Translations under genes and position numbers: made by a program
Source of the DNA: Heterocephalus glaber
Lineage: Eukaryota > Chordata > Mammalia > Rodentia > Bathyergidae
Length of the DNA stretch: 64,000 nt
Direction of reading: 5' to 3'
NCBI RefSeq assembly: GCF_000247695.1
Contig: NW_004624734.1
Location: 15,617,894-15,681,893, forward strand
The notes under the pieces: generated by a model
Databases searched by the model: none
What the model was told of the DNA's origin: nothing
The model's input: only the letters and a program-made list of their open reading frames with translations
Part shown: positions 5,175 through 57,828 of the stretch, piece after piece
How positions within the stretch are numbered: position 1 is the stretch's first letter
Layout: each line of letters begins with the position of its first letter

Positions 5175-5259
5175 GGGCCAGAGATTTAGCTCAGTGGTTC
5201 CTGCACCTGCCTTGAAAGCGCAAGGTCCCGAGGTTGATCCCTGGTACCAAAAAAAAAAA
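5175..5259 (+). repeat. ID-like tRNA-derived SINE
   Basis: A roughly 75-bp body starting 'gggccagagatttagctcag' carries a tRNA-like A box (tagctcagtggt) and B box (aggttgatcc) and ends in 'ggtacc' plus an A tail. This is the architecture of rodent ID elements, where an RNA polymerase III promoter drives a small RNA mobilised by L1. Two further copies in the window share the body and the ggtacc ending. The body differs from mouse and rat ID at several places, which favours another rodent lineage. It is a SINE, not a tRNA gene: the 3' half does not fold back to an acceptor stem. Confidence 0.8.
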
Positions 5260-6700
5260 TCAATTTCTAATACAAATTTGTCAGGTTGCTAAAAACAGAA
5301 AGGAAAAATTTTGTTGTAGAATGTGAAGGTATTCATGGAATTAAAATGTACTTTAAATCCATTCCAAACTAGAACAAATCAAAAAATTCTGACACATCAT
5401 TACTCTTGTTGTTTAAAACCTGTGACCATGTATATTCCAGTGCAAAGCATCACTAAGCCACTGACTCTGTGGATCTTAAGTTCAAAAGTTCTACTGTACT
5501 CTGTGGCTCAAAGAAAGACAAGGCTCCTGAACACCTGAAGCCCTCCCAAGATTTTTTGTCTATTCTGAATGTGACACTGAAACTTTCCTTGAAGTTTCGG
5601 TAGATGAGCTTATAAAATATTGCTTTGATGTGGATGGAAGACCCTAATTGAATCGTCAGCTTTTATCAGTTAGTAGGGAAGTGATGAGGCTCAGATGCTC
5701 TGGGGAAAGCCATGTTAGATACTCCTCTCTACAAGGGATTCTGGAAGCACCATAGTAACAATGAACCAAACACCAAACTAAATTGCTTTTAGTTCCATGT
5801 TTCTGTTTTCCGCACAACAAACTCTACAACATCTTTCTATTGTATTTTACTTATAAAATTATTTGATAAAGTTCTGGAAGAAAAATGCATCACTATTCAT
5901 AAAATAATCTTCAATGTGAATTCAAAACTAGTATTTTACTGAGCCTTACTTTGCTATCCTGCACATTTTTAATTTATACAGTTATTTTTCTTATATCATC
6001 TTTTCCCTTATTCTTTTAATAATTTTATCTTCTCTCCTCTGGGTTCTCATTAAAGATTTTATTTCTTGCTTTACATATTTGATGCAAAAGATGAAAGAAT
6101 CCTTTAATTATGACCTTAATTGCTTTACTATTCCTAGGAGAGTTTCTGACACTATTATATAACTCATGAACCCAAATTTACTTGTTGGAAGAAGAAACGC
6201 ACTTCACTGCTGGCTGCAGATAGATGATAATTAATCAGGTTGTTTTCCAAAAATTTAACCAAAGGGATGCTTTACAAATTTCAATATTTAGAGTTCATGT
6301 ATGTCTCATTCTTAGGGTTAAATTTCAGTCTCCTATCTGCCCATTTTTACAGCTTGACTTCTTTAATTAAAAATCTTATCTTCTATTCTGAAATTGTCCA
6401 GAAACTAAAATATCTCACTATCAGTATATATCAAACTAAAGATTCCTTGGTAAAGTCAACAAAACATGACTCTGAATGGGTTAAAAACAGAAAAAAATTT
6501 CTTGGAACTTTATCAGTGATTCACAGAATCTATTGGAGGATAGAAAATCAATTTAATAATGAAGAAGCACCAAGGCATATCTGAAGTTATGGGGAGAGAA
6601 AACAAAGACAAAAACCTAATTCCAGAGAGTAGCAAAATTATGATCTACTGCTGGTGCAAATGCAAAAATAATAGTGATCTAAAACATCTATGAATCATTG
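5260..6700. other. Intergenic, nothing recognised
   Basis: Contains a 114-codon frame at 6240-6584 with low-complexity AT-driven composition and no recognisable domain; treated as chance. Confidence 0.45.
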
Positions 6701-15779: not shown

Positions 15780-17490
15780 TTTGACTTATCATAAAGATGA
15801 TCACTACATTTAATCCTCCCTCACTGATGCCTACAGGGTCAGAGCTTAGCCATTTTGTGAGTAGATGATTTTCCAGATGTATGCAGCTGGCAGGACATCA
15901 GTGACCAGCCCTTTCAGGATGTTGAAGAAGTATGGTTCACTATGGAAATCTCTTTGGCCATGAAGAACTTAGAAAGGCAGGTTATGTAGTCATCAATTAA
16001 CAACGGGACATTAAAGCCAAATCCCTTTTTCTGGAGACCTTGGCTCAAAAAGCAGAGTTCATAGCCCTTACTCAGGCATTGATATTAGGAACAGGCAAAA
16101 AGCTGAATAGGCACATGGGCTCCAAATATGCTGTTCTAGTACTACATACTCATGCAACAATGTGGAAAGAAGAGGGCTTGCTAACTAATAAGCAATCATC
16201 TATAAAACACAAGCAAGATATTCCACAAATCCTAGAGGCAGTCTATCTTCCTAGTCAGGTCTCTGTCATTCTGTCATTCATTGCAAGAAAGACCAAAGAG
16301 GTATGTCTAAAGTCTCCTTGGAGAATCAAAAGGCTGATAGAAAAACTATTTTTATTTCTAATTCCAGAGGAACCACTAAAAATAGGCCTTAGGAAAATGG
16401 GGAATTAAAAGGGGGCTTAGTCATATTTAGAAAACAGACTGTTCCATCCTCAAGGGATACAGTGGATAGCTATAAAATCCCTTACTCATGCTTTCCATAT
16501 TGGAAAAGATGCTACGTGGGAAATAGCCAGTCCAATTTTCTCAAGAATAGGACTTAGTGGCAACCATCTGACAGGTCTGAAAAATTGCCCTCTTTGTACC
16601 TACAATGACCCTGGCAAGCACAATCCATCATCTTTGTTAGAACCTTTACAGAGGAGAGAGAAATACCCTGGGGAGGACTTGCAAGTAGATGTTACACACA
16701 TGCTACCATGTGTGTGTGTGTGTGGGGGTTCAAACAAATATTGGTCCTAATTGACACCTTTATAGGTTGGATGGAGACCTTCCCTATTCATTCAGAGAAG
16801 GCTACAGAGTAGCCAAGGTTCTCCTTAAAGAGATATCCCTCAGTTTGTACTATACCAGTCCCTTCAGAATAGCAGTGGACTTTGTTTTATGTCTCAAATA
16901 ATTCAGGGACTGGTAAAGGCCTTAGGTGTAAAGTACCATCTCCTTCTGCATGGAGACCTCAGTCTTCCAGAAAGGTTGAAACAGCCAGTCAGACCTTAAA
17001 GCAAAATCTTGCCAAGAGACTTCTGAGTTTTAGCTCTGATTACTGCCAATTGCTAAATATGAGCCGATTTGAAATGCTATATGAAAGTTCTTTCCTATCT
17101 TTTTATTTGTTAGTAGACTCAGAGATTCTTATACTATCTTATTAATCTGGTCCAAGTACAACTTGGTGGGAATAAAATAGTGATAGTTCCTGGCCTAATA
17201 AGACCACCTAATGCCTGCCCTTGAGACCAAGTGCTAATTAAAACTTGTAAAGAACTGACTCTTGTAGACCAATTAAAAACAAAATAGAAGGGCTCCTTTT
17301 CAGTGATCCTTGCCACACCCACTGCGGTGGCAGAGACTGATAGCTGGATTCACATTTCTAGGATGAAGCCAATTCCACCTAAACTGTCTGAGGAAAAAGA
17401 ACATCCCAAAGGAGAAAGATACTTCTGTGGAATTCTGAAAGACTTCTCTTCAAAAAGCAGTCCTGCTCCAGGTACAGATAAGTAGAGTAT
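15780..17490 (+). mobile_element. pol: Decayed class I (gammaretrovirus-like) ERV pol: RNase H to integrase
   Basis: Relic of an endogenous retrovirus. Read across several frames in order: the end of the reverse transcriptase connection and RNase H entry (about 15780-16030), an RNase H segment in the frame 16040-16408 with an AEFIALTQAL motif, an integrase zinc-finger/core region (about 16540-16900) with the word GEDLQVDVTH preceding the catalytic core, further core sequence in 16882-17145, and the C-terminal integrase domain at 17280-17380 with a TPTAVAETDSWIHISRMKP-like ending typical of class I pol. It is broken by numerous stops and frameshifts and by a (TG)n expansion at about 16711-16725, so it is non-coding today. 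gag is not recognisable. A related env could follow but is unproven. Confidence 0.8.
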
Positions 17491-38230: not shown

Positions 38231-39039
38231 AATGTAAATAGAACTAGAAATTCCATTCAGTGCAACTGTAGCCACTTTCACTTATTTTTGTATGTTGTAT
38301 TTTCATACAATATAAAGTATGCTAAGCATAGTCTTCATATTCTTTAGGCCTTCTTTTGGTCCATGGATTTAGGAATATACTGTGTAACAGCAAGATTTCA
38401 GAGATTATTTTTGTCTGTGTGTCATTACATTAAAAAATGTATATAATTTCAATTTTTTAAAATTGTATTTAGATTTTTTATGGCCAGTTATATGGTGTAT
38501 CTTAGATAGATAGCTATAACTGGGTGGAATATTCTGTATATGTAAAGGAGATTTTATTGCCTCATAGAGTTAGTTCTATTTCCTTGTTGGTTTACTATGC
38601 AGTACTATTCATTGATGAGAGTAGAGGAATAAAATTTTATAAGATAACAGTATTCATATAGGGGAACATTGTGATTATTTCATTCTCTAGTCATATACAA
38701 CAGCTGATGGTAGATAATGAAAAATCAATCTTTAGCCTGCTGCCTCAAGTTCACTCTGAATCTTGGAATAAAACATTGTATTTACACTTCACAATCTCCT
38801 CAGATACTTAAAATCCAAAGAAATAAATCGTATTCCTAGGATCCACTTCAGACCTACTAAATTCACTTTATCTGAGATGAAGTATACAATTCTTCAATAA
38901 CAAGGGTTTACATAATTCCTGTGACCAATTTGGCAAAAAATAACATGCACTAAATTTAAAAATTAATAACCCCTAAAACATTGCTTCCTAAGATGTGTGT
39001 TGTATTCCTCTTACCACCTGTGTACTCAAAGTGCATAAT
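38231..39039. other. Intergenic, nothing recognised
   Basis: AT-rich up to a sharp rise in GC at about 39040, where gene-derived sequence begins. Confidence 0.45.
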
Positions 39040-39491
39040 CTCCAGTCTGTGCAGCAGCGCTGGGACCCAGTGGCTGTGACCCAGCTGGTCCCCGAGGTCA
39101 AGCAAGGCGACCACGGACAAAGGAGCATGTTGGCCCTGAGGAGCGCTGGCCCCGCGCCCACCAGCCCGCCCTTGTACCCAGGCCGCCTGTTAGGCTGGGG
39201 CTACTTGCTTGGCCAGCAGGCCTGGCCCACAGCATGGAGCCATCCAGGCGCACCTGGGGCCACATGCTACCACAGCTCCTTCTGTGGCTCCAGCTGCTCA
39301 ACATGCTGGAAGGAGGAGGATGAGGTGGGGTCAGTGGGGTAGGGGCGCTGCCCCAGGGCTGCAAGCATGATGGGTGGCCCCAAGGGAGTAGTAGGGTGGA
39401 GGCACCTGCCAAGGGCAAAGTGGTGTGCAGCAGCCTGGAGCTCCTGTAGGTCCTGCCCCTGGACACGCTGCCCAACCTCACAGTCACCCTC
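39040..39491 (+). pseudogene. ADGRA3: ADGRA3 (GPR125) N-terminal fragment, dead copy
   Basis: Derived from the start of the adhesion receptor GPR125: 5' leader, signal peptide and beginning of the leucine-rich repeat N-cap. One frame runs from an ATG at 39234 (MEPSRRTWGHMLPQLLLWLQ, a hydrophobic leader) through GCKHDG at 39357 and KGKVVCSSLEL at about 39414-39446 to LPNLTVTL ending at 39491. The order and spacing match my memory of GPR125. The frame has no indel but two in-frame stops, TGA at 39321 and TAG at 39447. GC-rich sequence upstream of the ATG would correspond to 5' leader. After 39491 the leucine-rich repeats do not continue, so the copy stops at or near what I believe is the end of exon 1. 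An exon-1 genomic fragment and a truncated retrocopy are both possible. The neighbouring frames 38995-39342 (+) and 39098-39541 (-) are shadows. Confidence 0.78.
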
Positions 39492-39581
39492 CAATTTGGT
39501 TTGCAACCAAAATTGTGGAAAGAATTAAGGCCGTGGAGCAATGTACTACTGTAGCTATCAAGTTACTAAAACCTTAACTTT
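39492..39581. other. Unassigned junction between two gene fragments
   Basis: Ninety bases between the ADGRA3 piece (+) and the LETM1 piece (-). Matches neither as far as I can see. Confidence 0.5.
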
Positions 39582-39822
39582 CCCACAGCAGACTGAAGCC
39601 TTGGTAGTAGCGCTTGAGCTCCTCTAGCACCCTCTGTCTCAGGGACTTCTTTACTCCCACTGGGGCCACTGGGCTATACAGCCTCCTCCAGCTTTTTGTC
39701 CTTGACCTTCAGGGACTGGAGTCATGGCTGAGAGGGGGCAACGAAAGCCAGCCACACATCAGAAGGTATCCCCCCCGCCCCCGACAAACACACCGGTTGC
39801 AGCAGAAGTCCATGGCTCTCCT
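39582..39822 (-). pseudogene. LETM1: LETM1 internal fragment, dead copy
   Basis: On the minus strand the word [12 protein letters not shown] is followed, after a frameshift, by [20 protein letters not shown] and [12 protein letters not shown]. Human LETM1, the mitochondrial inner-membrane cation/proton exchanger and ribosome-binding protein, has the same series just before its transmembrane segment ([39 protein letters not shown], FRLLW), from memory. Weaker similarity continues upstream to about 39822 (GWLSLPPLSHDS against GWHSSRPVRDDS). The reading frame is shifted at about 39690 and a stop precedes it. Similarity ends abruptly at 39582, immediately before the membrane helix. Confidence 0.68.
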
Positions 39823-40317
39823 GCCAACACACACAGGTGCTCAGGCCTCGGCATCCAGCGGCCACTGGGCTCGGCTCTGAGGCACAGCTACAACTTCTAA
39901 TGTGATATTGAAGAAAACTTGTGAGAAGAGAAATCTTTGCCATATTTCTGATCTCAGCAAGAAAGGTTTGTGCTTCTCATCATGCACAGCAGCAATGGTA
40001 GCCATCAGTGTCTTGTAGATGTTCCTTCAAGGGATACTAGTGAGAATGTCCATTAATGGAATGTTGCTCCAAGAATGATGCAGGCAGGGTCAGCTGAAGA
40101 AGCCACAACGCAACCAGACTCATGGTCCCTAATATTTAAGATATTTGAAGGCTTTATATTCTGAGATGGTTCCTTATGCAGTGATAATTGAACCAGGATG
40201 CTGATTTCTGTGATGACATCAGGATCTGGGAGTGAGGGGAGGACAAGGAGCTGTGCTGCCTCCTCTTGGACATCAGAGAGCCCCTGTGATGGAGGTGTGG
40301 AAGCCACACCAGCCCCA
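39823..40317. other. Unassigned, moderately GC-rich, coding-like in places
   Basis: Minus-strand words such as YKTLMATIAAVHDEKHKPFL (about 39965-40025) look protein-like, but no family is recognised and frames are short. The minus-strand 89-codon frame 40053-40322 is unidentified. Could be further gene-derived debris or an old repeat. Confidence 0.3.
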
Positions 40318-40450
40318 GGCACAGGATCTTGCTATGCAGTTTGGGCTGGGCTTGAACACAGCATGTAGCTGAGGCTGACGTCAAATGCATATCCTCAGTC
40401 TCCTGGTGCTGGGATTGCAAGCATCCTCCACCACATCTGGAACCAGTTAA
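40318..40450 (-). repeat. B1-type (7SL-derived) SINE, antisense
   Basis: Left edge 'aggatcttgctatgcagttt', middle 'gggcttgaacacagc', then 'cctcagtctcctggtgctgggattgcaagcatcctccaccac', cut to its diagnostic parts, is the reverse complement of a B1/Alu-monomer ('ggtggatgcctgcaatcccagcactcgggaggctgagg'). Diverged. Confidence 0.8.
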
Positions 40451-41035
40451 CAATTTACTGGCAACATGTGAGCTGATCTTCTCTTCCTGATAAATGCTGC
40501 TGCTCCCAGCTGGCCACACAGTCATGAAGGGTAAACAAGCGGTGCTCCAAAGGGGATTGTCCTGTACAAGCTATCTTCTTCAGGTTCACCTCTTTGCAGC
40601 TCCTCAAATCCAAATTTCAAAAGGTCAACATTGTTGGTATCAGGTTGACCCTCATGTAGAAGAAATTTGTTATAAGACTTTCTAGAGTAGGCCCAGGGAC
40701 ACCATAGCCACATAAAATCCTCAGACGTACTTCACAGTACAAAACAGCAAAAAACTGGAGGAGCAGATCCCCTCCCCTAGTACCGGGGAGGTGAGCTGCA
40801 TAGGCGCCAGCAGCACCACTCTCCCCCACCCCCGGAGGCTGCACTGAGACAGTATTTGGATCCTCAGCACAGAGGTGCAGGGGGTCATAAAGGACATTGT
40901 TCTGAGCTCCAGAGGATAGAGCAGAAGTGAGCAACAGAAAGAGGGCCTCTCTCAGGCTCCTTGATGAAAAGGGAAGCCCATTGGAAAAGTGAAGAAAATC
41001 TCTGCAATAAAGGCACCCCAGACCACTGTGGTTGC
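40451..41035 (-). other. Unidentified coding-like block
   Basis: On the minus strand an uninterrupted stretch of the 190-codon frame 40617-41189 (its first part is SINE, see 41041-41230) and the overlapping frame 40522-40713 carry protein-like sequence, for example DTNNVDLLKFGFEELQRGEP. Low codon-level AT bias compared with flanks supports gene origin. I do not recognise the protein. It could be part of the same cluster of copied gene fragments. Confidence 0.3.
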
Positions 41036-41040
41036 ACACT

Positions 41041-41230
41041 GAATCAGGCAGGATGATGTGTGACTGCAGTCCCAGCACTCTGGACAGCTGAGGTAAGAAG
41101 GTCACATGGTGGAGTCCAGCCTGACCAATTTGGTGAGTTAGTGAGACCCTTAGTGTATCTGAAGTAAAATGTCTGAGGATATAGTTCACTGAAGAGATGC
41201 AGAGTACAAGCCCCAGTAATGCAAAAGTGA
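41041..41230 (+). repeat. B1 monomer followed by tRNA-like tail (B1-dID-like composite SINE)
   Basis: 'tgatgtgtgactgcagtcccagcactctgg' then 'gtccagcctgaccaatttggtgagttagtgagaccctt' is a sense B1 body. It is followed by 'ctgaggatatagttcactga' and 'gcagagtacaagccccagta', which resemble an ID-type tRNA-derived unit. B1 joined to an ID-like tail is known in several rodent families outside Muridae. Confidence 0.65.
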
Positions 41231-41335
41231 AAAACTAATGGATAGATGATAAATAGATAAAAATATTCATAGATGCTTAAATAAAAATAACAAAATAAGT
41301 GGCTACTGATTTATTTAGTATGAAGAAAAAATGGC

Positions 41336-41930
41336 TGTCACAGGCAGAGTCAGGGGGAGAGCCCCCACAGTCCTGGGCCTGACTCTCCCGATGATGCAGA
41401 AGGTTGTGGAAGAATCACATAGAGACCAAAAGCTTAGAAGCAAAGTTGTACTTTTATTCAGCAAGCATGCAAGAGTACAGCTCCCTTCTCCTAGAGAGAT
41501 AGTAGGAGTGCCCAAAATGGAGCCATCACTGCAGGGGGGCTCAAGATGCTGGTTTTATAGTAGTTGGGACCTATCCTGCCTCTGGGCTGAGGGTGCCCCT
41601 ACTTGATTGGTTAATGATTAACTTAGCTCATTACTAGTGACAACAGGGAAGGGTCTTTTCAGGGGCCCCTTACATCTTAGGGCCAAGGTTTCTTTTCCTT
41701 TTGATCTTAGCAAACCAAGCTTTGCAGGGTACAGTGTGAAGAGGAGATGCAGCCTCAGCAGACTGTCAGCTTTTTATGGATGGTTAAGCCTGTTCTTCCA
41801 GCTATCTGAACTCCTTTGGGGAGGGGCTCATCTCTCCCTACCTAGGGGTCTCTATCCCTACAGGGCTATAGGGTTTTCCATTACATGGAGACTCAGGTTA
41901 TGGAACCCCAAGACATGAACTCACTTCCTT
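41336..41930 (-). mobile_element. LTR of an endogenous retrovirus, antisense
   Basis: Read on the minus strand: a TATA-like 'ctactataaaaccagcatc' (about 41550-41568), about 110 bases later 'gctgaataaaagtacaactt' (poly(A) signal, about 41445-41465), a pyrimidine-rich U5 with an internal stem ('gggggctctccccctgac') and an end at 'ctgtgaca' (41336). This is the TATA, R, AATAAA, U5 layout of a class I-type LTR. No primer binding site or internal sequence follows the U5 end, so it appears to be solitary. The 5' boundary (near 41863 or 41930) is uncertain. Confidence 0.7.
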
Positions 41931-41989
41931 GGCAACATCTCCAAACAGAACTTGGAACCCTTGCTAACGGGCATCACAATCTAGTAACA

Positions 41990-42655
41990 GCCCTCTCCCA
42001 AGCTCATTTGGCTGGAGACAGTCAACAGCGAACATGCTGAGCCACTTCTTCACTTTGAGAGGCTGCAGCCTCAGGACCCCAGGTAGAGAAAGTATCTGTG
42101 AAAGATTAAGAAGATGTCTGATTCCATCCAAATGCTGCAGGCCATGCTGGAAGAGCCGCATGACTGTCACAGACACTCGAGGGATGGGTCTCTCCTGGAG
42201 TGACCACTAGTGACCTACCAAAATCAAGGTACCCCAGTGAAGTCTCCCTAAGCCCAAATACCAATGGCAAAGAAACTGGGAAGAGCATGGGGCAAGTATC
42301 ACCAGGCCCAGAAATGCCCAGTAGCTCTGGGCAGGCCTCCCCAGAGCCAGGCACTGAAAACCTAGAGAGTCAAAGTCCGGGGGGGGGAGACTGAAGTCAC
42401 AGCCAATGGCCCCCCAGGAGACACTGAGAAAGAGAAGCCTGGTGTACATCCACCCAGGCCTGACCTCCACTATTGGAAACAACTTCACAAAGAGCCTTGC
42501 AGAATTCTGGCCAGTATGGTCCCTGCAGACAGGCAGGCTGCTCTGGTTCTCTGAGCCCTGCCTGCCTGTTTCCCTGGGCAGCCAACCCATCTATGGTCCT
42601 TTCTTCCCAGGTACCTCCACCACCCACAGCTCTACCCAATCAGGCCTGATTTTGA
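41990..42655 (+). other. Unidentified GC-rich, coding-like sequence upstream of the PRKCI copy
   Basis: Plus-strand frames here (for example 42200-42394 with KETGKSMGQVSPGPEMPSSS, then 42406 onward) have gene-like composition, with Pro/Ser-rich and then mixed sequence, but I do not recognise the protein. The frame starting at 42406 runs straight into PRKCI-derived codons at about 42656. There is no matching PRKCI sequence in this part: the expected N-terminal 35 or so residues and the 5' leader are absent or unrecognisable. Confidence 0.35.
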
Positions 42656-44332
42656 GAAGAGGCATCATGACAAGGTCTCTTGAGAATTTCATCCCATTTG
42701 AGGGCCTGTGTGATAAAGATCGAGATGTGTGGTGTTTGGACAATAAACAGCTTTTCACCACACACTGGGTAGAGGAGGAAGGAGACCCAAATACTGGGTC
42801 ACCTCAGTTGGAGTTAGAAGAGGCCAATAGGCTTTCTGAGCTAAAGAAAGATTCTGAGCTCTTAATTCATTCATCACCTTGTATACCAGAACATCCTAAA
42901 GTGCCTTGTCCAGGAGAAGAGAAATCCATCCACCACAGAGCTGCAGGCTGCTAGAGAAACTGTATTATGTGAATGGCCACTTTTAAGGCCAAATACTTCA
43001 GCAGGCGAGCTCACTGTGCTGTCTTCACAGACCGTGTAGGAGGACTTGGCCGCCAGGTGTATAAGTGCACCAACTGCAAACTCTCAGTTCACAAGAAGTG
43101 CCACAAACTTGTCACAATTGAATGTGGGCAGCGTTCTTTACCATCAGAGCCCACAATGCCAATAAATTCATCACCCATGGCTTCAGACCCTGCACACACA
43201 GCAATCCCACATAACCTTTCAACTCATGAGGCTTTAGATCAAGTTGGTGAAGAGAATGAGGCAGCAAACACCAGGGAAAGTGGCAAAGCTTCATCTGGTT
43301 TAGGTCTTGAGGACTTTGATTTGCTCCAAGTGATGGGCAGAGGAAGTTATGGGAAAGTACTGTTAGTCCAACTGAAAGAATCAAATTGTATGTATGCCAT
43401 GAAAGCAGTGAAAAAAGAGCATGTCAACGTTGATCAGATACAGAGAGAGAAGTGCATTCTAGAGCAGGCATTCAATTATCCTTTTCTAGTTGCACTGCAT
43501 GTTTGCTTCCAGACAGAAAGCAGACTGTTCCTTGTTCTAGACTATGTCAGTGGGGGAGATCTACTGTTTCATGTGCAGCAACAAAAACGTTTCCTGAAGA
43601 ACATGCCAGGTTTTACTCTGCAGAAATCAGTTTAGCAGTCAACTACCTTCATCAGCAAGGAATACTTTACAGAATTTTAAAATTGGAAAATCTATTACTA
43701 GACTCAGAAGGGCACCTTAAACTCATTGATTTTTGCTTGTGTAAGGAAGGCTTACAGCCAGGAGACAAGACCTGCACTTTCTGTGGTACTCCTAATTTCG
43801 TGGCGCCAGAATTTATAAGAGGGGAAGATTACAGTTTCAGTGTGGACTGGTGGAATCTTGGAGTCATCATCTATATCATGATGATCGGAGAGTCTCCATT
43901 CCATCTTGATGAGAGCTCTGATAACCCTTATGAAAACTCAATCGAGCATGTCTTGCAAGTAATTTTGGTAAGAGACATTGTCATACCTCATTTTCTGTCT
44001 GTACAAGCTGCAAGTGTCCTACAGAGTTTTCTGAACAAGGACCCAAAAGAATGACTGTGTTGTGATCCTCACAGGGACTTTGCTGATGTTCAGGAGCATC
44101 CATTCTTTCAAAATGTGGACTGGGACATGATGGAGCAAAAGCAGGTGTGCCTCTCTTTAAACCAAATATCTCTGAGGGATTTGGTTTGGACAATTTTGAT
44201 CCTGAATTTACTAATGAACCTGTCCAGCTCACCCCAGATGATAATGACATCATGAGGGAGCTTGATGGATATGAATTTGCAGGTTTTGAGTATATCAATC
44301 ATCTTATGATGTATGAAGAAGAAAGGGTCTGA
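42656..44332 (+). pseudogene. PRKCI: PRKCI (protein kinase C iota) processed pseudogene, coding part
   Basis: Intronless copy of the atypical PKC-iota mRNA. In order: PB1 domain (about 42656-42920; [20 protein letters not shown], then [17 protein letters not shown] with the acidic OPCA motif), pseudosubstrate region disrupted, C1 zinc finger (about 42925-43125), kinase domain (about 43310-44055) and C-terminal tail with turn motif region ([16 protein letters not shown]) ending at TGA 44330-44332. Frame breaks: TAG at 42953 with frameshifts before and after, a frameshift at about 43590, and TGA at 44052 with a further shift before 44147. The second Cys of the C1 CxxC is Phe (HCAVFTDR). The glycine loop (GRGSYGKV) and ATP-binding Lys (YAMKAVKK) remain, but the catalytic Asp of YRDLK has become Ile (YRILKLEN). 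No residues before about position 36 are recognisable. Confidence 0.97.
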
Positions 44333-46205
44333 TCCCCATTTTTCAACTATGCATTTTGCTTATGTTCCCATTTAATGCTTGGAAAAACTTGTTGCCAGCC
44401 TAGATAGAATTTTACCATTTCAGAGATGTCTGGAAGCTAATTTTAATTTAGTGTTTTGAAGCTATTTTTAGACCTAATACTTGATTCTTATAGTCTATAG
44501 TAGAGAATATGGAATTTTTTGTTCATAAATTAGATTTTTATGAACTGATTTAAATAACAATGAGATAATCGCTTGTTAACCACACTTGTATGTACATTCC
44601 ATTTGTTGAGTGGGACATAATGCCTAATATTTTTTCTTTTTCCTTACGATACAAGAAAACAATTTGTCTTTTCAGTAAAATATTTTACCTATGCTAGTTT
44701 CTCTCCAACCACACTTTTGAAACTGACCACCTTTTGGGGTCAGTTTATGTAGTCTTCAGGAAAATCCAAAAAATACCAACAATTGTGAATAAAAACACAT
44801 ATACTTGTATCTTTTATATATGAGGAGGATATAGTATATGACTGCAAGCTTTGGAAGGGTGAGGGTTCTCATGAGGTGGGGCATCTGAGAAAGATTAAAG
44901 GATATTTTATTAAATGTTTATAAATTTTAAATTGTTCTAAATTTAAAACTGGATCATTAACTAAAATTAAATTGAACTAAGATTGTACCATTATAACTTA
45001 TTTACATTTAGATGATGATGGTTACCTTTCACATCCTTGGCATAAAAATGATACTAAGGCAGAAGGATGATATACAGCATCCTAATTTTAGTTAATGATC
45101 TAGTTTTGAATTCAGAATGATTTAAAATTTGTAACCATTTAATGGATTATCTTTTGGTCTTTTTCAGATGCCCCATTTCATGAGAAATATTACTTTTCCA
45201 AAGCTTGTGGTCATGTATTGTCTTTTCTTCATATAATTTAGTTTGAAATTAATGAAAACATCAAAGGAAAATATTTATAGACATTCACGTGTTCATTTCC
45301 AAGACACGTATGTTTCTCTTAATGCCTGGAACTTGTTTTAAAACAAAAAGCAATATTCACAACATAAACTTATAGAGAATTCTAACCCATCAGAAATGTG
45401 TTTAGGATCTTGCTTTTAAGTATTCCTCTTTGCCTTAGGGCATTCAGAGGGTAGAATAATCACCCAGGGTGTTTGTTTACCATGTTTATCACTGAGCCTA
45501 CATTATAATTCTTTTGGGCTTCTCAAACTCATTTTGAGAAACACTTTCTTCAAGATATTCTTTTGTCCTCCAGTTAAATAGTAGAAAGTGTGCTGATGAT
45601 ATAATATTTTACGATGTTACAAGCAGAAATTTACAACGTTATGAATATTTTTGGACAAATTTTACATGAATGACTTCATTAGATACCTACCTTGTTCCCC
45701 TCAACAAAATCTTATCAGTTTTCTGCCAATGATATCCAAATGATGAGCATTTTTCTTTGTTGAGGTTTTCACCATTATTCAGGGTGGTCTTTTGCTTTTG
45801 AATTTTTTAAGTAATAAGATTAACTGTATATTTTATAGAGAAATGCATTACAAATATGTTTTCAACTTTTTTTGTAGTATTTAAGTATTATGTCAGTTCT
45901 TTTCATGCCATATAGAAATTGTCTCAAAATACTCTTTAGGGGAATAAGTCAGTTTATAGTCAGAAAGGTTGACATTCTGGTGTTCTAAAAAAAATATTTT
46001 GCATAATCCTGCAGTCAGATCATTTTATGCCTATGTAGCTTGGGTTAAATTTCAAGTACTATGTTCAGCACTGGTATATTTACTGTATACATTTGTTTTG
46101 TTTTGATTTTTGTCATGTAGAACACTGACTTGATCATCACAATGTAATCTGTGTTTTGTTCTTTTTTCATGTTACAGTTTTTAAATAAAACATTTAATAT
46201 AAATT
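44333..46205 (+). pseudogene. PRKCI: PRKCI processed pseudogene, 3' UTR-derived part
   Basis: Follows the stop codon directly with no splice-like break. It begins 'tccccatttttcaactatgc', which resembles the start of the PRKCI 3' UTR as I recall it, and runs to a canonical poly(A) signal and A-rich tail near 46184-46232. Contains the long inverted repeat at 44817-45235. Whether the whole span is parental 3' UTR or includes later insertions cannot be decided without the parental locus. Confidence 0.8.
44817..45235 (+). repeat. Long inverted repeat (153-bp arms, 113-bp loop), near-perfect RNA hairpin
   Basis: Left arm 44817-44969, right arm 45083-45235, loop 44970-45082. The arms align in inverted orientation over 153 bases with no gap; 122 positions are identical and 31 differ. 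Of the differences, 15 are left-arm G against A in the reverse-complemented right arm, 10 are T against C, 1 is A against G and 5 are transversions. In a + strand transcript the first 25 are G-U or U-G pairs, so 147 of 153 positions can pair. In a - strand transcript the same 25 would be A-C mismatches. The loop holds a small stem of its own (catcctt with aaggatg). The arm tips are AT-rich, and I see no target-site duplication. Not assigned to a known MITE family. Confidence 0.95.
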
Positions 46206-46232
46206 TGAAACAAAAAACAAAAACAAAAAAAC
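46184..46232 (+). promoter_or_regulatory. Fossil poly(A) signal and A-rich tail of the PRKCI copy
   Basis: AATAAA at 46184-46189 is followed about 20 bases later by an A-rich tract (46208-46232) broken by single C residues. This is the 3' signature of L1-mediated retrotransposition of an mRNA. Confidence 0.85.
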
Positions 46233-48315
46233 CATATCCTTAACATATGTTTTGATCTTAACATGTAGCAAGTACAGAAATTTGGAAACTTTTGATCATT
46301 ACAAGGTCCATATTTTACCATATACAAAATTTTGATGTAATGTAATTATCATTATATGAAAAAACAGTAATGTGTCAATAAAAAAAAAGAGTGTAATCTC
46401 AAGGTTAACCCAGAATGACTGAATTAGAATCCTCATATTAAGAAATTCCCAAGGGGTTCCATATGGTTTTCAATAATTTAGCAATATGGAAGTCTAATAA
46501 TAGGAGATACTCAGAAGGTGCTATGCAAACTTAAATTTAGGATCTGAAAGACCATAGGTTTACCTGGATGCTGCACTCTTATAAATCTAACAATATTTTT
46601 TTTCATATGTCTTACTTCATTTCTGGGTGGGTATTCTGAATACCCTCTAAGTTTTACTCTGGGGAAGAGCCTTGTAACTTGTTAGCCACTGACATACTGT
46701 GTAGAATGCTGGAGATCCCTTTTTTCTAAAGTTTACAACTGACCTCTTATCTCCTTCAAACAGGAGATTTCAGGAAAGTTGGCTGCTATTACATTCAGTG
46801 GAATTCACTGCCCTCCATATCCAACTACCTAGTCATTACATAACCTGTATAAACTCAAATCAATCTAACTCATATATAGTTTGCCATTACACTCTTGTTT
46901 TTTCTTTGTTTTTTTCTTGTTTTAATTTTTCTTCCATCATTTCAAAAGTTTCTTGTCATAAGAATGTTTCCTTTAAACACTTAAATACCATGAGTAAATA
47001 ATCACATGGAAATGACAATTTTGGACATTACTCTGGATAAGAGGATTATTTACTGAGAAAATTATTAAATACTAAGATAATTGACAAAAGTTTTTTTTGT
47101 AAATTATCCACATAATTGTGTCAGACTAGCCCTATGTGATTCCTGATGATACCCATTCCCAGGTGTTCATGCCTTTGTGTAATCTCCTTGAGGACAATCA
47201 GGACTTGTAAAGCGACTCTAACCCAGAGGACACAGCAAACATGGTGAGATGGTGTATTCATGTTATCATTATATTATGTCATTTTTAAAACTCTTCATTA
47301 ACGTGGTTACTTTCCAGTTGGATTACTATCCAGAGACACTTCTGGATCAACTCCCTTACTTCTGCCATTTAGAATTCTAAAATCCCCAAGTTTAAGTCAT
47401 AAGTTCAGGATAAGTGATGTGCTGAACTAATAGAGAAAATACAGTTAAGACAAACACCTTTCTGGCTAGATTCAATGATATAAGTCCCACGTGCTTTCTT
47501 CTGGGTTATAAAGAAGAACAAGAAGCCCTCTTTGCCCCCTATCTAAAGTCATTTCCTCCCCTTATCCTGCCCTACTGTATGTAATAATAAGCTTCATATG
47601 GTTAATACTGTGATTATCAATACAAAAGTATGAATGACAATAGTAAATAATGCATGCTTGGAAACTACACATAGTCTCTAGCCTAATGGTTCAAATGTTA
47701 TCCTGCCATATGGAAAACCTCTTTGAGTTTTCATTTTCCAGGAAATTTGGTAGAACTTAAATAATTCTGTGGCTTTAAAAAGAGTGGAAGAAAAGGAAAT
47801 AGAGGACAGGTCAAAAGAATGTGTGTATTATCCAAAATATATTCTTTCTCTCTGGATATAAATAATGTCACTGATATTGCTGCTGGGGTTACATTGCAGG
47901 ATTTTCTACAGTGACTAATCCAGAAGTCCAGGTACTGGAGCAAATAAAGAAACAGCCTGCAACTCCAGTGACATGAGTCCCTGGTGCTATGAACTACAGA
48001 AACCTATACAAAGGCATGATCTCACTCAAGACTGTTATTAGATGAACTCAATAAGAGTTCACTCATTTCATTTTGTGTGATTTTATTTTAATAACTCTTT
48101 GCCACCATTTAGGGATTCACAGATTTTCCCAGGCCTGGACCAGATCTAAGATTTCTTACATTTTAAACACAGCCTTCTTCATTCTTGTACGTTATATAAA
48201 ACTGACCTCTCATTACACAAATATATGTATTATCACTTATCTTGCTTTAATTTCTTGGTCTATCTTTTCTCAGTCTCATTGTCTTACTTATTTTACAGCA
48301 CAAGACACAATACCT
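46233..48315. other. Intergenic; possible old LTR fragment at 47100-47400
   Basis: AT-rich. 47130-47260 ('cccattcccaggtgttcatgcctttgtgtaatctccttgag', then 'ggacttgtaaagcgactctaac') recalls an old mammalian LTR type but is too diverged to assign. No gene seen. Confidence 0.35.
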
Positions 48316-57722: not shown

Positions 57723-57744
57723 ATTTTATTTTATTTTATTTTAA

Positions 57745-57828
57745 TTTTTTTTTTGGTACCGGAGATCAAACTTGAGACCTTGTGCTTTCAAGGCAGGCAC
57801 CAGAACCACTGAGCTAAATCCCTCGCCC
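57745..57828 (-). repeat. ID-like tRNA-derived SINE, antisense
   Basis: Reverse complement reads 'gggcgagggatttagctcag' through a B box (aagtttgatct) to 'ggtacc' and an A tail (a T run here). Same family as 5175-5259 and 19184-19267. Confidence 0.8.

Follow-up and report, generated by a model that had tools for sequence, protein, structure and literature searches.

Long double-stranded RNA, such as that formed by inverted repeats in 3'UTRs, is hyperedited by ADAR enzymes, and the features of such editing (A-to-G clusters confined to the duplex, depletion of a 5' G, and strand specificity) are shared by the PRKCI-derived repeat family described here; while ADAR hyperediting is normally seen as a mismatch between RNA and DNA, in the PRKCI family the G is fixed in dispersed genomic copies. 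RNA editing is usually regarded as leaving the genome unaffected. NUKU is reportedly a family of several retrocopies with L1-type hallmarks, all derived from the single gene KU70, and the PRKCI family differs from it in having gained an internal hairpin with frozen edits and in being large (at least 150 PKC iota matches). A-to-G hypermutation after reverse transcription is described for Rous-associated virus 1 and avian leukosis virus (PMC8586724 and PMC12925331), and a review (PMC12925331) mentions an inverted repeat region of an avian retrovirus in which nearly half of the A residues were changed to G. The avian retroviruses have the reverse transcription of an edited RNA in common with the PRKCI family, whereas they are viral and the PRKCI family is derived from a cellular gene, ends in poly(A), resides in the germ line and comprises tens of copies with differing edit sets. 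Deaminase scars fixed in genomic copies are likewise described, in PMC2873906, for endogenous retroelements edited by APOBEC, where they are G-to-A changes that result from deamination of cDNA, as opposed to the A-to-G changes of the PRKCI family, which would result from deamination of RNA before reverse transcription. ADAR hyperediting and retroviral A-to-G hypermutation are already known; for retrocopies of mammals, a full-text literature search, with subscription papers mostly outside its scope, listed no description of fossil A-to-I edits.

The copy studied here lies in a stretch of 64,000 nucleotides from Heterocephalus glaber (the window), and its features are listed in Table 1. We consider it very probable that ADAR-edited hairpin RNAs of a family of PRKCI retrocopies were reverse transcribed into new sites, and that the window copy is one of these insertions. 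An inverted duplication would have entered the 3'UTR of the retrocopy family, the transcripts would then fold into a near-perfect RNA hairpin of 153 bp, and germ-line ADAR would deaminate adenosines of the paired arms in many of them; reverse transcription of the LINE-1 type would read inosine as G and insert the edited sequence at new loci, of which the window copy, with about 19 frozen edits, would be one. We infer that the enzyme was ADAR, that editing occurred in germ cells or germ-cell precursors, and that the copying was done by LINE-1. A preliminary description of this DNA had proposed that an edited PRKCI hairpin was reverse transcribed into this copy, of which the reverse transcription of an edited hairpin RNA is strongly supported by the sister copies, while a location of the hairpin in the parental PRKCI gene is not.

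Table 1. Features of the PRKCI-derived repeat unit and its hairpin in the window
Feature	Position	Strand	Basis or remark
PRKCI-derived repeat unit, window copy, about 7.3 kb	39047..46388	+	alignments with other copies
Tentative target-site duplication, 5' side (AAAGTGCATAATCTC)	39028..39042	+	by eye
Decayed PKC iota coding part	42697..44332	+	68-71% amino acid identity to human PKC iota; start set by eye
PRKCI-derived 3'UTR with hairpin	44333..46205	+	40 scored copies from 191 candidates
Left arm	44817..44969	+	inverted duplicate of the right-arm region; no counterpart in the 3'UTR of the PRKCI gene
Left-arm A-to-G changes (n=13)	44824..44951 (span)	+	44824, 44827, 44828, 44834, 44844, 44857, 44861, 44864, 44875, 44876, 44889, 44900, 44951
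Loop, 113 nt	44970..45082	+	orientation relative to the arms flipped in some copies
Right arm	45083..45235	+	original sequence of the PRKCI 3'UTR
Right-arm A-to-G changes (n=6)	45108..45209 (span)	+	45108, 45144, 45145, 45156, 45157, 45209
Internal A-rich tract	46206..46231	+	35 of 39 copies shown run on beyond the tract
CAATAAA plus A-run that terminates the unit at its 3' end	46375..46388	+	
Tentative target-site duplication, 3' side (GAGTGTAATCTC)	46389..46400	+	by eye

With regard to the characteristics of LINE-1-type retrocopies, the three PKC iota pieces abut without introns in most of the 40 copies, the copies are spread over many contigs, and the A-run in the window copy is located where homology between copies stops, with an A-run also ending copy L082. 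The 3' limit of the unit follows from the end of homology at 46376-46392 in all seven other copies compared (L002-L008), and the 5' limit was set by alignment to one other copy (L049 vs L050). The flanks of the window copy have an imperfect target-site match of 12-15 nt when inspected by eye, and a script found no exact match of at least 8 bases. Its coding part is broken, with the three PKC iota pieces in three different frames. Copies L040, L041, L042 and L044 do not extend beyond the internal A-rich tract, which is likely to be the former poly(A) tail of the PRKCI retrocopy that founded the family. In the 5' part of the unit (39047-42650), alignments of other copies frequently begin at 39491, 39589 and 39713, and these shared start points may mark either where transcription begins or where similarity runs out. 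No Pfam domains were detected in ten selected open frames of 38992-42951, and an endogenous retrovirus with a captured gene was rejected, as no direct repeat of at least 60 nt joins the ends of the unit and these ten frames lack a Pfam match. Elsewhere in the window, an open frame at 16001-16408 (+) has an RNase H match of 25.5 bits, just under the Pfam cut-off of 25.8, and is probably a retroelement remnant. There are also two SINEs in opposite orientation (5175-5263 and 57740-57828), which we take to be ID-like, the window SINEs presumably resembling ID and B1 elements, as well as a poly-CA tract and two weak MIR matches.

The arms of the window hairpin pair over 153 positions (122 Watson-Crick pairs, 25 G-U, one A-C and five other), and the same two arms were returned by a repeat finder, in agreement with the preliminary description, which had reported gapless inverted arms of 153 bp with 25 G-U pairs against one A-C, and pairing at 147 of the 153 positions in the + strand RNA. 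Its statement that the - strand pairs less well is matched by folding of both strands, with a predicted energy of -210.5 kcal/mol for the + strand (-88.7 for shuffled sequences) and -140.3 kcal/mol for the - strand (-65.5 for shuffled sequences). It had also suggested that the bias would be chance if the differences were balanced relative to the ancestral arms, and here the imbalance stays: relative to a consensus built from 12 sister copies, the window arms have 19 A-to-G, one T-to-C, three C-to-T and no G-to-A changes, together with six transversions. Since A-to-G outnumbers T-to-C by 19 to one in this comparison, the excess of G-U over A-C pairs is, as judged from the alignment, not due to chance. 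The reading of all 25 G-U pairs as A-to-G changes holds for 19, which went from A-U to G-U, while five were already G-U in the consensus and one goes back to a C-to-T change. The positions of the edits in Table 1 were taken from the list of arm pairs and the 12-copy consensus, and the remaining edited copies also have edits at these sites more often than at others (mean 0.33 vs 0.16, P 4e-4). Sites that are often edited in the family include 44857, 44864, 44900, 44929 and 45108.

Searching with the 3'UTR (44333-46205) gave the 40 scored copies listed in Table 1, a search with the hairpin only added 13, and the flipped-loop version of the hairpin found further copies; in total 68 hairpin copies were examined among the matches listed. 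The at least 150 matches to PKC iota mentioned above were obtained with a 62-residue C-terminal query, and some of them may be exons that belong to other genes of the PKC group. A set of 20 loci comprised seven without the hairpin, four with it, three with one arm and six without a match (L069, L071, L075, L077, L078, L088). Three of the 40 copies (L045, L046 and L048) largely lack the arms and were excluded from the per-copy counts. A consensus hairpin (139 Watson-Crick and six G-U pairs) was built from 12 copies poor in A-to-G, and compared with 25 edited copies. Relative to the arms, the loop runs in the opposite direction in L076, L080, L086, L091-L102, L057, L058 and L065, and by match direction also in L040-L042, as if inverted by recombination between the arms; many flipped-loop copies are edited as well. 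Of these, L058 and L065 were oriented by their flanks, which do not settle the orientation of L057, and in the subset of 50 copies to which these three belong 30 have at least nine A-to-G changes. Older flipped-loop copies have a raised background, making L093 (nine A-to-G) and L104 (eight), which are close to the threshold, uncertain. In L084, which has no A-to-G changes, the left arm is joined to sequence about 70 nt past the right arm, perhaps because the reverse transcriptase skipped the hairpin; L084, L045, L046 and L048 all lack the loop together with at least one arm.

From the comparison with the consensus it is clear that A-to-G changes stand out in the arms of the 25 edited copies, at 549/2965 (18.5%), compared to 168/10648 (1.6%) outside the hairpin and, for the 12 unedited copies, 19/1426 (1.3%) in their arms. 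T-to-C changes in the edited arms (59/2963, 2.0%) are marginally above the 1.5% outside, as are C-to-T changes, at 6.7% in edited arms vs 5.3% both outside the hairpin and in unedited arms; G-to-A amounts to 44/872 (5.0%) in edited arms vs 209/5210 (4.0%) outside. Counted per copy, A-to-G changes in the arms number 9-39 in 43 of the 68 hairpin copies and 0-8 in the other 25, with a background expectation of 1.9, and the distribution looks two-peaked rather than graded. T-to-C counts range from 0 to 7, except for nine in L057 (three if read the other way, its orientation being unclear), and A-to-G exceeds T-to-C by at least six in 41 of the 68 copies, while an excess of this size in the other direction occurs in none. 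Selecting unedited copies in the same way on 300 windows outside the hairpin, as a check on circularity, gave at most 3.3% A-to-G vs the 18.5% in the arms. Because selecting copies on G-to-A in the arms gave 19.7%, which mirrors the signal at these A/G sites, hairpin-less relatives and the parent were used to set the polarity: in six such relatives and the parent, the majority base at 53 often-edited sites is A at 50, G at one and another base at two.

The A-to-G excess is limited to the paired arms and to a single strand. In the 60-nt flanks of the hairpin A-to-G changes number 11/695 and 8/598, and the loop of edited copies has 30/1088 A-to-G and 33/922 T-to-C, or 11/965 and 16/813 without L040-L042, the loops of which are apparently flipped and thus misaligned. 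There is no excess in the rest of the 3'UTR outside the hairpin, nor in the same arm of eight hairpin-less relatives (A>G 19, G>A 17, T>C 16, C>T 28, summed without the parent and L067, a near-twin of L066), and the coding part has similar A-to-G rates in edited and unedited copies (0.027 vs 0.024, 34 of the 40 copies). Along the stem the A-to-G rate varies, being low at the loop end (0.06 and 0.04); at the base of the stem it is low on the right (0.01) but not on the left (0.15). ADAR prefers a U or A as 5' neighbour, disfavours a 5' G and favours a 3' G. The context of the edited adenosines is ADAR-like, with edit rates by 5' neighbour of 0.229 for U, 0.214 for A, 0.090 for C and 0.065 for G, and by 3' neighbour of 0.390 for G, 0.206 for A, 0.113 for U and 0.084 for C (P 2.5e-4 and 3.3e-4 with sites as the unit), which extends to the family the 5' U/A context first described in the window arms; no such preference was seen for A-to-G changes outside the hairpin. 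Depletion of a 5' G is also described in PMC2873906.

The best identity among the PKC iota matches listed is 93% over 28 residues at C1:48339581-48339664, preceded by an apparent intron end, and this sequence is taken for the last exon of PRKCI. The 3'UTR behind this intron-flanked exon is collinear with the family except that it lacks the left arm, which is an antisense match to the parental right-arm region, and the parental right arm itself is interrupted by a SINE-like insert. The repeat finder detected no inverted repeat like the hairpin in the parental 3'UTR, contrary to the preliminary description, which had placed it there. As the left arm is missing from the parent, from L066 and L067 (contig C61) and from seven other loci, the hairpin most likely arose by inverted duplication within the PRKCI-derived repeat family, as far as these alignments go. 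It had further been held that the lack of a parental inverted repeat would rule out editing; the repeat is absent, yet editing stands, because the immediate source would be the PRKCI-derived family that already had the hairpin. The left-arm-less L066 (G000:C61, match at 921029-921214) and L067 (match at 942385-942570) are both PRKCI-derived and located about 21 kb apart. The open frame of L066 extends over 562 codons or more (according to the search tool 737, compared to 243 in L067) and contains kinase and C1 domains, although its YRNLK replaces the YRDLK of human PKC iota; L066 is possibly a coding retrogene or pseudokinase.

A first alternative is ancestry rather than repeated editing, in which a single edited or G-rich source copy handed the same set of G residues to a subfamily. 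Overlap between edit sets is indeed somewhat higher for closer copies (Spearman -0.37, with pairs that are not independent), and L041/L042 and L038/L044 have 16-18 edits in common; some edits may therefore have been inherited from edited source copies. Among the 25 edited copies, however, the mean Jaccard overlap is 0.230, compared to 0.229 for independent editing with fixed site preferences, and only 3 of 300 pairs exceed a z of 3. A tree based on sequence outside the hairpin, although poorly resolved and with short inner branches, interleaves edited and unedited copies. Parsimony required 423 changes for 550 carriers at 77 arm sites, a count that is weak evidence because inner branches are short and ordinary outside sites also need many changes (changes/carriers A>G 85/140, T>C 112/166, C>T 194/316, G>A 178/217). 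We regard a single source as very unlikely, and on the sequences compared editing took place more than once.

Selection for pairing, where only changes that preserve pairing through G-U survive, would agree with the 147 pairing positions in the window and with the presence of the hairpin in the 68 copies examined. Together with a one-strand C-to-T change it had been offered earlier as a rival to editing, and both fail because C-to-T, which forms G-U pairs as well, is hardly raised in the arms. Edited copies are also poorer in Watson-Crick pairs (104-129 in the 25 edited vs 130-140 in the 12 unedited copies), unedited copies of like divergence are interspersed among them on the tree, and the coding part of the window copy is broken, making such selection extremely unlikely. 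A conserved functional RNA structure was rejected likewise, given the C-to-T rates and the result of an Rfam search of 42000-47000, which gave nothing at the gathering score and a single match far below it.

That the changes were instead made in DNA after insertion, through a cruciform, an R-loop or transcription-linked mutation, finds some support in the editing of deoxyadenosine by ADARs in DNA/RNA hybrids, described in PMC12925331 for model substrates and enzyme mutants. Copy L082 terminates with an A-run inside the A-rich loop; the next 1.7 kb contain no further family sequence, so that this copy is without the right arm, while its left arm has 14 A-to-G and three other changes. As L082 was edited though its DNA lacks the right arm, the duplex existed in RNA and it was RNA that was edited. 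Its edit set is not contained in any of 71 copies compared (best overlap 9/14), and it may go back to an edited RNA that was primed internally or polyadenylated prematurely. It is the transcript strand that carries the changes, whereas T-to-C would be expected if A had been deaminated in the cDNA. An effect of hybrids or transcription should moreover extend along the unit, while the changes are restricted to the arms and one strand and leave the coding part unaffected, and the counts per copy look two-peaked instead of graded; we therefore hold DNA-level deamination to be extremely improbable. APOBEC-type deamination of cDNA, of which scars in retroelements are on record (PMC2873906), or one-strand C-to-T can be given virtually no weight, as the + strand G-to-A excess predicted for APOBEC is not seen, C-to-T is hardly raised, and the older base is A at 50 of the 53 often-edited sites.

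Editing of hairpin RNA by ADAR followed by reverse transcription, the reading preferred here, suggests that reverse transcription can traverse inosine-rich hairpins. It also calls for caution, as repeats with clustered A-to-G changes can be misread as products of ordinary mutation or of selection acting on the RNA structure. Several controls are built into the family: sister copies without edits, relatives without the hairpin, flanks that do not pair and a copy with one arm. It is a tentative and rather doubtful extension that ADAR editing coupled to LINE-1 reverse transcription forms a recurrent germline mutator in mammals, which would turn RNA edits into heritable DNA, with the family as a single-molecule archive of ancient germline editing that bears its marks in 43 of 68 copies. 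On this extension, editing may even have favoured the copying of the RNA, either because the hairpin became looser or because it escaped double-stranded RNA sensors. Tens of dispersed copies carry apparent RNA edits turned into heritable DNA, each such copy being the fossil of one RNA molecule, from which the strength and sites of an ancestral germ-line ADAR-like activity would be readable molecule by molecule.
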